From NCBI GenBank assembly GCA_016235865.1, contig JACRIK010000003.1:496001-560000 (forward strand): a stretch of DNA of 64,000 bases, in the 5' to 3' direction. Shown piece after piece: positions 11,220-41,152 of the stretch; position 1 is the stretch's first letter; each line of letters opens with the position of its first letter. Position numbers and translations under genes: made by a program. The notes beneath the pieces were generated by a model. That model did no database searches. It worked only from the letters and a program-made list of their open reading frames with translations, and was not told the DNA's origin. The DNA is from Planctomycetota bacterium. Its GTDB lineage: Bacteria > Planctomycetota > MHYJ01 > JACQXL01.

Positions 11220-11270
11220 CCCCCTCACCATCCCCCCTCCCCTTGGGGGGAGAGGATAGGAGAGGGGGGT
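11220..11270. repeat. Nested palindrome family A, copy 1 (before purD)
   Basis: Outer arm CCCCCTCACC at 11220-11229, an inner CCTCCCC / GGGGGGAGAGG hairpin, and a G-rich right arm ending at 11270. It fills the gap between glgA and purD. Its right arm falls 11 bp before the purD ATG, where a Shine-Dalgarno is expected. Confidence 0.8.
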
Positions 11271-12568: not shown

Positions 12569-12603
12569 CCCTCTCCCCATCGAGGAGAGGTTAGGTGAGG
12601 GGG
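12569..12603. repeat. Nested palindrome family A, copy 2 (before the DUF559 gene)
   Basis: CCCTCTCCCC (12569-12578) pairs with GAGGAGAGG (12582-12590) and is followed by the arm GGTGAGGGGG ending at 12603. Only the right-hand outer arm is present. It ends 10 bp before the GTG start of the DUF559 gene. Confidence 0.8.
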
Positions 12604-12613
12604 TGAGAAGTAA

Positions 12614-13027
12614 GTGAAAAGAAGAAATGTTGGAATAAGCAGATGTCTTAGAAGAAATCAAACAGATGCGGAAAGGAAGCTCTGGATAATCCTGCGAAAT
12701 CGTCAATTATGCAATATAAAGTTCAGAAGGCAATTTCCGGTTGACAAATACATTTTAGATTTTTATGCTCCGGAATGTCGGCTTGGGGTTGAGGCCGACG
12801 GCGGACAGCATTATGAGGATAAAGGCAGGAAGAAAGACGAAATAAGGACTAAAAGGTTGCTGTTGCTGGGAATTAAAGTATTAAGGTTCAGCGACAGGGA
12901 TATATTAACTAATGTTAAAGGTGTGGTGGCGGTGATACAGAATACAGTAGAAGCGCAGATAAAAAATCCCCCTCACCTTAGTCCTCTCCCCCGAAGGGAG
13001 AGGAAATGGGTGGGAAATAATAAATGA
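12614..13027 (+). CDS. DUF559 (Vsr-like) endonuclease-domain protein with repeat-encoded tail
   Basis: 137 residues starting at a GTG. The core matches DUF559, a PD-(D/E)XK-fold family related to very-short-patch-repair endonucleases: RRNQTDAERKLWIILRN near residues 14-30, then KFRRQFPVDKYILDFYAPECRLGVEADGGQHYE near 36-68 with the conserved Asp, Glu-x-Asp-Gly and His. The last roughly 20 residues (NPPHLSPLPRRERKWVGNNK) are encoded by a palindromic repeat at 12968-13014, so the domain itself ends near 117. A copy of the same repeat lies just upstream and another just downstream. No methyltransferase or mismatch-repair gene is adjacent. Substrate and biological role are unknown. Confidence 0.8.
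   Translation: MKRRNVGISRCLRRNQTDAERKLWIILRNRQLCNIKFRRQFPVDKYILDFYAPECRLGVEADGGQHYEDKGRKKDEIRTKRLLLLGIKVLRFSDRDILTNVKGVVAVIQNTVEAQIKNPPHLSPLPRRERKWVGNNK
12968..13014. repeat. Nested palindrome family A, copy 3 (inside the DUF559 3' end)
   Basis: Left outer arm CCCCCTCACC (12968-12977), then the inner CCTCTCCCCC / GGGAGAGG hairpin; the right outer arm is degenerate (GGGTGGG). It is read as the C-terminal tail of the DUF559 protein. Confidence 0.8.
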
Positions 13028-13035
13028 TGAGTTTT

Positions 13036-13071
13036 CTCCTCTCCCCCGAGGGGAGAGGTTTGGTGAGGGGG
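13036..13071. repeat. Nested palindrome family A, copy 4 (before cdsA)
   Basis: Inner arms CCTCTCCCC and GGGGAGAGG around a tiny loop, followed by GGTGAGGGGG (13062-13071), 11 bp before the cdsA ATG. It is oriented opposite to copy 3, which lies 21 bp to its left. Confidence 0.8.
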
Positions 13072-14988: not shown

Positions 14989-15221
14989 GCCTTCACCACG
15001 GAGACACGGAGGTTTCTCTGTGCCTTCCGCGCCTCTTATACGCTCTACACTCCACGTTTCACGCTATACGACGTAACCAACCACATACGGATTAAACGTC
15101 ACGCGTACCCGATGCGCTTCAGCCACTGGCTAAATGCTCCCGACCAGTGCTTCGCACAGGGTTCAGTATTTACGCGGCTTGTCGGGGTATTTAACCACGG
15201 AGACACTGAGGCACAAAGCCG
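14989..15221. other. Gene-free spacer with repeat fragments
   Basis: No coding region seen. It contains two CACGGAGACAC fragments (near 15000 and 15190) of a common dispersed repeat and a copy of the GCTCCCGACCAG family at 15135-15161 (GCTCCCGACCAG, hairpin GTGCTTCGCAC, then AGGG). Confidence 0.6.
15135..15161. repeat. Family B repeat (GCTCCCGACCAG-hairpin), copy 1
   Basis: TGCTCCCGACCAG is followed by the hairpin GTGC-TTC-GCAC and AGGG. It is nearly identical to the copy inside arsM (39876-39904) and shares its flanks with the copy inside the flavoprotein gene (37953-37990). Confidence 0.75.
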
Positions 15222-34568: not shown

Positions 34569-35663
34569 TTACTGCGCCGTGGAATAGGCGTCAAGTTTAA
34601 GTTGTTTCTCGGATATCCTGCGCCATTCGGGTGAGGCCCGATACTTCTCGTAGGCCATTGATGCCACCATGACCGCATTATCCGTGCAAAGCTTCTTGGC
34701 CGGCAAATACACCTTGACGCCTTCCCGGATTGATAGTTCCTGGAATCTATTACGGAGCCGGTCATTGCAGGCCACGCCGCCGCCCAGGACAATCGTCTGG
34801 GCCCGCTTAAGCCGTGCGGCCTGGAATGCTTTTTGGGTCAGGGTATCAACCACCGCCGCTTGGAATGAGGCGCAGATATCCGGGATATTCAAGCCCTTCT
34901 TGGTAGGCGTTTTAGCCGAGGCGTTCTGGCCCTTGCAATAATACAGCACCGCGGTCTTAATCCCGCTGAAACTGAAATCCAGCGACCCTTCTGATGCAAT
35001 GCCTCTGGGGAATTTAATTGCCTTGGGATTGCCCTGGCGGCCAATCTTTTCTATAAGCGGCCCGCCCGGATATCCCAGTCCCAGCATCTTGGCCACCTTG
35101 TCAAACGATTCACCGGCCGCATCGTCCCGGGTCCGGCCCAGCGCCTTATAACTGGTCGGTGACTTGACATAAAACAAAGAAGTATGCCCGCCTGAAACCA
35201 CCAGGCCAATGTAAGGATATACCAATCGACTGTTTCCCCTCACCCCGACCCTCTCCCCATGGGGGAGAGGAGAAGGTGAGGGGGATAATTCATTCACATA
35301 AAGATGCGCCTCGATATGATTGACTGGAATCAGCGGTTTATCCAGAACCCAGGCCAATGTCTTGGCAACCGATACGCCCACCAATAAAGCCCCGATTAAA
35401 CCGGGCCGGTTGGTTACTGCCACGGCCGAGATATCCTTTAACTCAATGCGGGCATCCTTCAAGGACTTCTTTAGAATCGGCAGAATGGACTCAATATGCG
35501 CCCGGCAGGCAATCTCCGGCACCACGCCGCCATAGGCGCTGTGGATATCAATCTGGGATAGCACCACATCAGTCAGAACCTCTTTCCCATTCCGGACGAT
35601 GCTTACGGCCGTCTCGTCGCATGAGGTCTCTATGCCCAGGCAGATAAATGATTGCTTTCGCAT
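34569..35663 (-). CDS. tsaD: tRNA N6-threonylcarbamoyladenosine synthase subunit TsaD with a repeat insertion
   Basis: 364 residues. ATPase signatures are LGIETSCDETAVSIV (9-23), the metal-binding HIEAH (116-120) and LVVSGGHT (154-161), then DDAAGESFDKVAK and SFSGIKTA. TsaD transfers threonylcarbamoyl from TsaC product to A37 of ANN-decoding tRNAs. Between LYVNE and LVYPYIGL, relatives have a short loop. Here about 20 extra residues (SPSPSPLPHGERVGVRGNS, about 127-145) are encoded by palindrome family A, in frame. The insertion falls on an exposed loop just after the HxxxH metal site, so function is probably kept. DUF2007 follows 6 bp downstream. Confidence 0.95.
   Translation of the reverse strand: MRKQSFICLGIETSCDETAVSIVRNGKEVLTDVVLSQIDIHSAYGGVVPEIACRAHIESILPILKKSLKDARIELKDISAVAVTNRPGLIGALLVGVSVAKTLAWVLDKPLIPVNHIEAHLYVNELSPSPSPLPHGERVGVRGNSRLVYPYIGLVVSGGHTSLFYVKSPTSYKALGRTRDDAAGESFDKVAKMLGLGYPGGPLIEKIGRQGNPKAIKFPRGIASEGSLDFSFSGIKTAVLYYCKGQNASAKTPTKKGLNIPDICASFQAAVVDTLTQKAFQAARLKRAQTIVLGGGVACNDRLRNRFQELSIREGVKVYLPAKKLCTDNAVMVASMAYEKYRASPEWRRISEKQLKLDAYSTAQ
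35236..35284. repeat. Nested palindrome family A, copy 5 (inside tsaD)
   Basis: Outer arms CCCCTCACC (35236-35244) and GGTGAGGGG (35275-35283) enclose inner arms CCTCTCCCC (35250-35258) and GGGGAGAGG (35262-35270). It is the cleanest, fully nested copy in the window. Confidence 0.85.
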
Positions 35664-39765: not shown

Positions 39766-40692
39766 ATGAAGAAATCAGATATTAAAAAGATAGTGCGACA
39801 GGGTTATGCCAAGGTGGCTACCACTAACACTTCCTGCTGCCCTACCACTTCAAGTGCCTCCCGGTGCGCTCCTTCGGTGCTCCCGACCAGTGCTTCGCAC
39901 AGGGGTGGATGTAATACCAAGGCATCAAGCGCCCCGCTAAGGCGGGGTGGGAAAGGTAGTGTATTGCTTGGACCCAAATCCCTGAGCAAGGCCATGGGTT
40001 ATTCGGATAAGGAAATGGCGTCCGTGCCCAAGGAGGCCAATCTCGGACTGGGTTGCGGTAACCCCATTGCCCTGGCGTCCCTGAAACCGGGCGAGACCGT
40101 GCTGGACCTGGGTTCGGGTCCGGGACTGGACTGCTTCCTGGCCGCCAATAAGGTCGGGCCATCCGGCAAGGTCATCGGCATAGATATGACCCCGGAGATG
40201 ATTGCCAAGGCACGCAATAATGCCAAAGGCAAATACCCAACAGTCGAATTCCGCTTAGGCGAGATAGAAAAACTCCCGGTTCAGGACAATTCGGTCGATG
40301 TCATCATCTCCAACTGCGTCATAAACCTCTCGCCGGACAAACCGGCCGTATTCAAGGAGGCGTTCCGGGTCTTGAAGCCGGGCGGCCGGCTGATGGTCTC
40401 GGACGTGGTCACCACCAACCAACTACCGGATGACTTGAAGGAATCCATCGGCGCCTATGTCGGTTGCTTAAGCGGCGCGATAATGAAGGGCCAGTATCTC
40501 GGCACCATCAAGCAGACGGGATTTAAGGACGTCCGGATATTGGACGAAGCCAAATTCCCCATCAAGTTTATGTTAAATGACCCGACAGCCCAGGCCCTGG
40601 CGCAAACCATTAATCTATCCGGCAAATCACTGGACGGCATCGGCGACTCGGTTGAAAGCATCAAGGTGGCGGCCATTAAACCCAAGAAATAG
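39766..40692 (+). CDS. arsM: Arsenite methyltransferase with a repeat insertion
   Basis: 308 residues from the ATG at 39766 (a GTG at 39757 is also in frame). The N-terminus [20 protein letters not shown] has the CC pair of bacterial ArsM. The SAM motif is [20 protein letters not shown] (about 112-131), and the Cys residues NLGLGCGNP and [36 protein letters not shown] complete the arsenic-binding set. It methylates As(III) using SAM. Between the CC pair and GYSDKEM there are about 33 extra residues ([17 protein letters not shown]...RRGGKG), encoded by family B DNA and a CCCCGC/GCGGGG palindrome. Confidence 0.88.
39876..39904. repeat. Family B repeat, copy 3 (inside arsM)
   Basis: GGTGCTCCCGACCAG, the hairpin GTGC-TTC-GCAC and AGGG. 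A second palindrome, CCCCGC-TAAG-GCGGGG, lies close by near 39933-39949. Together they account for most of the extra N-terminal residues of ArsM. Confidence 0.75.
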
Positions 40693-40771
40693 GATACAGA
40701 TGCGTCGCCTTTTCCAATAATTCAACAAATACTTGGTTTTTTGCCCCCCTATAGGTATGGTGAGCATACAC

Positions 40772-41052
40772 CGATGAGAGTGCCGGTGACGTGCCTCCGT
40801 AGCGCCGGAAGCATACCTCCGTAGCGCCAGAAGCATACCTCTGTAGCGCCGGGAGCATACCTTTGTAAGGCCTGGAGCATACCTCTGTAGCGCCTGGAGC
40901 ATACCTTTGTAGCGCCTGGAATATACCTTCGTAATGATTGGAATATACCTCGGTAACGCTTGGAATATACCTTTGTAGCGCCCAGAATGCACCCTCGTAG
41001 GGCCGGTGACGTACCGCCGTAGCGCCGATAACGTACCCCCGTAGCGCCAAGG
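40772..41052. repeat. Tandem array of 22-bp units (about 13 copies)
   Basis: The stretch 40693-41152 between the convergent arsM and gcvPB genes has no supported gene. It holds units of exactly 22 bp, starting at 40794 and then every 22 bp to 41036, plus degenerate ends. Each has the form CCTNNGTAGCGCC then NNGGAGCATA or variants. The first three and last three units drift in sequence; the middle ones are close. Units abut directly, so this is not CRISPR. The array is free of stop codons in all minus-strand frames, which makes long but doubtful open frames. At its right end is a degenerate CCCCCTCCCCC palindrome (41060-41095). Confidence 0.9.
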
Positions 41053-41152
41053 GTCCTACCCCCCACCATACCCCCTCCCCCTGTTTTCAGGGGATAATTT
41101 ATGAGAAGAATGGGATAAGTTAATGTAAATAAAGGGGTAATAAGAAACTTGG

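Follow-up and report, generated by a model that had tools for sequence, protein, structure and literature searches.

Pairs of RAYT transposases and REP palindromes were defined in 2010 by their layout, by the co-variation of enzyme and palindrome, and by a copy-number link between the two (PMC2817692). In the RAYT (TnpA-REP) and REP/REPIN systems (PMC2817692, PMC3116915), as in the system described here, a single small gene lies between inverted palindromes, several lineages of the enzyme share a genome, and every lineage has a palindrome of its own. Palindrome copy number is correlated with the enzyme in both, and inverted pairs lacking the gene are found. The enzymes are different: an HUH Y1 transposase in the case of RAYT, a predicted nuclease of the Vsr/EDxHD fold (DUF559, PF04480) in the system described here. 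The palindromes also differ from REPs, being homopyrimidine/homopurine with tails GGTGAGGGG; the GTAG/CGTC-type tags, a REP feature, were absent, and the tails instead repeated the stem in mirror image, as in GGTGAGGGGG. With an unrelated enzyme and palindromes free of REP tags, the DUF559 system is not a member of the RAYT/REP family; it appears to work like one.

The palindromes themselves are already known. Holder et al. (2015) described the widely distributed intrastrand triplex motifs TM, TM_ECO and PIT, mentioning BoxC among motifs of the same type; triplex formation in vitro was shown for TM_ECO only, and these authors never found mobility activities near the motifs, nor a common neighbour gene (PMC4666352). 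Hundreds of bacterial genomes contain triplex-type palindromes, which have been linked to genome instability. The palindromes at DUF559 genes share the sequence type CCCTCTCCC..GGGAGAGGG TTAGGGTGAGGGG and the wide distribution of these motifs, and, like them, are pyrimidine/purine hairpins accompanied by a mirror-image third strand and scattered over many genomes. The differences are that DUF559 is the common neighbour, and that T-ended relatives (CCCCTCTT.., CCCCCTTT..) are added to the group. As far as the open-access literature shows, the new element is the link to DUF559: no earlier report of a DUF559-palindrome association was found there, in agreement with the initial annotation, which knew of no description of this nuclease family in a RAYT-like role.

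A third comparison is with the EDxHD homing endonucleases, such as I-Bth0305I (3R3P; PMC3943268), whose catalytic domain is homologous to DUF559. In contrast to these, DUF559 units lack both an intron and an additional DNA-binding region, their ends are palindromic, and many dispersed gene-less copies of those ends exist. The mismatch endonuclease Vsr (1CW0) shares the general fold, but its genomic setting is wholly different.

The DUF559 locus of the window

The window (the whole stretch of 64,000 nucleotides analysed, from a Planctomycetota bacterium) contained a DUF559 nuclease gene encoding 137 amino acids (12614-13027, plus strand; Pfam E=5e-32, 110.5 bits with respect to a gathering score of 20.6). 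The gene starts with a GTG codon at 12614 and is flanked by purD and a cdsA-like gene. Pfam detected only DUF559 and a sub-threshold MTES_1575 match in the protein, and no HUH Y1 transposase domain (PF01797).

Five copies of a palindrome, called family A, had been placed in the window by the initial annotation, three around the gene (copies 2 to 4) and two elsewhere (copies 1 and 5), and all were confirmed in the sequence. Copy 2 (12569-12603, plus strand) was the left end of the unit according to the orientation rule obtained from 80 loci (see below): a palindrome of the pyrimidine/purine type (12569-12590, CCCTCTCCCCATCGAGGAGAGG) followed by a tail directed towards the gene (12594-12603, GGTGAGGGGG), a mirror-image third strand ending 10 bp before the GTG. 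Copy 3 (12968-13004, minus strand), the right end, was inverted with respect to the left one, with its tail CCCCCTCACC at 12968-12977 and its palindrome at 12982-13004; it lay within the last codons of the ORF (...NPPHLSPLPRRERKWVGNNK) and was translated as the C-terminal tail of the protein. Copy 4 (13038-13071, plus strand; palindrome 13038-13058, tail 13062-13071) was located just outside the unit, its tail pointing away from the gene. Copy 5 (about 35236-35284, plus strand) was a dispersed, gene-less copy with a tail-palindrome-tail structure, and copy 1 (11220-11255, minus strand) was degenerate and lay between a glycogen-synthase-like ORF and purD. The arm CCTCTCCC occurred 8 times versus 2.2 expected (0 of 100 shuffles).

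The genome to which the window belongs (2.67 Mb, 38 contigs) harboured three DUF559 genes, each with a different palindrome, and about 34 strict copies of the window palindrome, the reversed control giving no match. The third strand was present in 34 of 35 dispersed copies, most of them with a tail on both sides.

Association of small DUF559 genes with palindromes

Hairpins were scored by shape and composition, with no reference sequence (a perfect stem of 7 bp or more, a loop no longer than 8 and a 5' arm made up of pyrimidines only), in three samples: GTDB contigs from about 20 phyla (80 loci, set A3), further DUF559 genes of the same genomes (37 genes) and genes from the phylum of the window (17 genes). 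The GTDB collection was scanned with a three-sequence alignment, the broad alignment being too diverse. A perfect pyrimidine/purine palindrome lay within 250 bp of 122 small DUF559 genes out of the 134 in the non-redundant collection, which spans about 20 phyla (75/80, 34/37 and 13/17 in the three samples, respectively). This is a lower bound because several genes scored as negative were near misses (L017, L076, L090 and L016, the last with a 6-bp stem on either side).

An excess over other genes had been named beforehand as the test of the association, and equal frequencies as its refutation; the excess was large, and the refuting result was not obtained. In set A3, palindromes were found near 75 of the 80 DUF559 genes and on both sides of 50, versus 18 and 1, respectively, of the 231 control ORFs of the same loci, from which the direct neighbours of the DUF559 genes had been left out (odds ratios of 178 and 383). 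At 2-4 kb from the gene there were 0.17 hairpins per kb, compared with 8.4 per kb at 0-50 bp. Purine-first hairpins, the built-in control, were found near none of the DUF559 genes in the 80 loci. Where a DUF559-like domain was part of a larger protein, the loci contained 1 hairpin in 35.5 kb. The pairing of small DUF559 genes with flanking palindromes is real and general.

The stems differed between nucleases (CCCTCTCCC, CCCCTCCC, CCCTCCCCC, CCTTCCCC, CCCCTCCTT, CCCCTCTT and CCCCCTTT), and their similarity increased with nuclease identity (Mantel r of 0.457 versus a permuted maximum of 0.21 in 2000 permutations). The maximum-likelihood tree of the nucleases required 41 changes of stem class, compared with 72.0 ± 2.4 for shuffled labels, while the host genome was nearly scattered on the same tree (40 changes versus 45.8 ± 1.5), and, at a given level of nuclease identity, stems were no more alike within a genome than between genomes. 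The palindrome sequence tracks the nuclease and not the host, an outcome named as support in the initial annotation, with some co-variation being expected as gene and flanks travel together.

Anatomy and boundaries of the unit

Of the 161 palindromes near DUF559 genes, 144 were followed by the purine arm in mirror image (the third strand, or “tail”), versus 3 of 126 random places. The tails of the nearest palindromes faced the gene both upstream (49:14) and downstream (50:11) in the 80 loci, and the unit therefore has inverted ends. The third strand is not obligatory, because four Xanthomonadaceae loci (L198, L199, L205 and L207) carried a second short palindrome (e.g. GGCCCGAAGGGCC) in its place. 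The downstream palindrome began at a median of 31 bp past the DUF559 domain, and the ORF read through it in 46 of the 59 loci having one just downstream, which accounts for protein ends of the SPLPRGEG/PPLTPPLKGG type; the statement of the initial annotation that DUF559 proteins in other genomes often end in SPLPRGER-type tails was borne out.

Units were found in unrelated contexts, and homology between them stopped no more than a few base pairs from the outer palindrome edges. The L050 and L054 units were 82% identical over 429 bp with non-homologous neighbours, and those of L051 and L055 likewise ended at the palindromes; pairs above 80% identity carry this evidence, because at lower identity neutral flanks are unalignable anyway. 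Insertion between adjacent genes was seen in G194, where a unit lay between trpE and trpG and four relatives had -1, 2, 3 and 6 bp at this place; the extra DNA contained no gene besides the nuclease unit, and the empty site was too diverged to define a target-site duplication. In G125 (5.6 Mb), 3 of the 4 pattern-matching palindromes were located at the (broken) nuclease, which argues that they came with the gene.

One Omnitrophota MAG (G127) contained two 502-bp elements 99.8% identical to each other (L056:3875-4376 and L150:2850-3351). They were MITE-like, ended in GGTAGTGTCAAATAAG, were bordered by 8-9 bp direct repeats and each carried a DUF559 and palindrome cassette; shorter, nuclease-less copies of the MITE were present in the same genome. 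Direct transposition of the unit with target duplications was considered for these elements and rejected, the ends also occurring without the nuclease. In this case, the clearest recent duplication, the nuclease hitchhiked, because the ends that moved are those of a MITE also existing without it. G127 was the only genome in which a target-site duplication was seen at element ends; for the standard unit none could be delimited.

Dispersed copies and nuclease presence

Dispersed C-ended palindromes were present in all 40 DUF559 genomes tested, with the reversed control almost nil except in one genome, and a few DUF559 genomes were nearly devoid of strict palindromes. Palindrome numbers were related to the nuclease in the 119 genomes of the Luteimonas family (mean of 13.2 with DUF559, n=69, versus 1.0 without, n=50, p=6e-7; rho of 0.58 with the number of DUF559 genes) and in the phylum of the window (23.4 versus 1.05, p=5e-6), these links being correlations in which kinship was controlled coarsely.

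T-ended palindromes were commoner where the resident nuclease's own palindrome was T-ended (p=6e-4, matched by broad class). They were also numerous (CCCCYYTT..AARRGGGG) in G152 (173), G127 (67) and G136 (44), in which no sampled DUF559 gene was of the T-ended type; these three genomes may have lost a nuclease or harbour another partner.

The predicted nuclease

Five residues (E20, D49, E60, D62 and H66) were invariant in 40 homologues (alignment A4), as expected of a working nuclease. The AlphaFold model of the window protein (pLDDT of 86.5) matched the Neisseria DUF559 protein 3HRL (Foldseek, TM of 0.88) and the catalytic domain of I-Bth0305I (3R3P; TM of 0.8, E=4e-5), and DUF559 also matched 3R3P by sequence profile (E=8e-5). 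Vsr (1CW0) was far behind, with a weak match (E=0.33). The protein is predicted from the model to be a nuclease of the Vsr/EDxHD fold; it consists of 137 amino acids in one domain with a low-confidence tail, and the model contains no extra tethered DNA-binding region.

Proposed mechanism and alternative explanations

The likeness to RAYT/REP layouts pointed out in the initial annotation extended to all the features used in 2010: inverted flanks, co-variation, copy-number link and a sharp-ended unit. We propose, on evidence that is comparative throughout and with a probability of roughly two in three, that the locus is a self-contained mobile unit (palindrome>tail-DUF559-tail<palindrome; about 420-440 bp) belonging to a very widespread REP-like system run by the nuclease. 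DUF559 probably drives a common bacterial repeat family in many unrelated hosts, because its genes sit between inverted copies of the repeats and more copies are scattered in the same genomes. The nuclease itself would cut its own palindrome and move or multiply the palindromes. It would act, probably as a dimer, by recognising its own inverted palindrome/tail sequence, either in duplex form or, on the single-stranded DNA of the replication fork, as a hairpin/triplex, and nick or cut beside it; repair of the break would then copy the unit, or a gene-less palindrome, to a new place. As in the case of RAYT and REPs, the enzyme would serve both its own unit, in cis, and the scattered palindromes, in trans. 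In place of the HUH tyrosine of RAYT it would use a metal-dependent active site of the PD-(D/E)XK/Vsr type, which is related to that of homing endonucleases.

Among the alternatives, the palindromes might be spread by something else, with DUF559 inserting into pre-existing copies or riding along with them. The cassette carried by an unrelated MITE in G127 is in line with this, as are the homing endonuclease fold, whose known mode is insertion at a cut target, and the genomes rich in palindromes without a matching nuclease. We nevertheless consider it rather unlikely: genomes without DUF559 were nearly palindrome-free, palindrome type tracked nuclease phylogeny across genomes, both ends lay at a fixed distance and faced inward, and in G125 the palindromes were concentrated at a broken nuclease. 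That the palindromes are moved by a RAYT or another transposase of the IS200/IS605 (Y1) type, with DUF559 as a passenger, is very improbable. Y1_Tnp genes were common in the Luteimonas family and their number showed a weak correlation with that of palindromes (rho of 0.30), but the partial rank correlation was 0.15 for Y1 given DUF559 versus 0.53 for DUF559 given Y1, genomes with Y1 and without DUF559 had a mean of 1.4 palindromes, and the tails are not of the REP type.

Selection of the palindromes as local devices (bidirectional terminators, autoregulatory sites or a restriction-like mark for self-recognition) would fit the near universal, conserved association, and hairpins at both ends could shield a small gene of foreign origin; this is also improbable, given that the palindromes were scattered genome-wide in numbers rising with those of the nuclease, that the downstream copy was translated as coding sequence in most loci, and that gene-less inverted pairs exist, for example in E. 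coli. 

Returning to a system run by the nuclease, we lean towards DUF559 being the autonomous, sequence-specific mobiliser of triplex (TM) palindromes and their T-ended relatives in most bacterial phyla. This would be a REP-type mobile system with a homing-endonuclease-like enzyme that arose independently of RAYTs, ycjD being its resident copy in E. coli K-12. If so, REP-like systems would have formed around a second, unrelated type of enzyme, and DUF559, a large family of “domain of unknown function”, would gain a role.

The ycjD locus of E. coli

In E. coli MG1655, TM copy 9 (1351204-1351239) adjoined ycjD, a DUF559 gene (1351407-1351760), and the ycjD stop codon of E. coli K-12 lay inside a degenerate palindrome, suggesting at this one locus that ycjD belongs to the same pairing. 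The first catalogued TM pair of E. coli K-12 (hrpB-mrcB) had the structure palindrome-tail-17 bp-tail-palindrome, that is, a unit without the gene. The near-universal, lineage-specific pairing makes the origin and spread of triplex palindromes testable, down to ycjD of E. coli K-12.

The fabI-sapF interval of E. coli (L036, L210-L212) contained ycjD and palindromes in about 3300 of 5426 genomes. It was rejected as a clean empty site, the sampled strains without ycjD having the eefRABCD efflux operon there.

Other repeats

Several further repeats were observed. The reversed control (purine-first palindromes) gave 22 matches in G129 (L060) and 115 in G037, pointing to another palindromic repeat family in these genomes. 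Two nuclease units of a Spirochaetes MAG (G132; L067 and L081) were 91% identical over about 480 bp and had a further inverted repeat, TAACTCGAGTTAGGCGAA, lying beyond the palindromes at a distance of about 25 bp. In the window, a degenerate tandem array of a 22-bp repeat (consensus about AGCGCCNGGAGCATACCTCTGT) occupied positions 40757-41064, and an identical 27-mer, TGCTCCCGACCAGTGCTTCGCACAGGG, was present twice, at 15135-15161 and 39878-39904, 24.7 kb apart.
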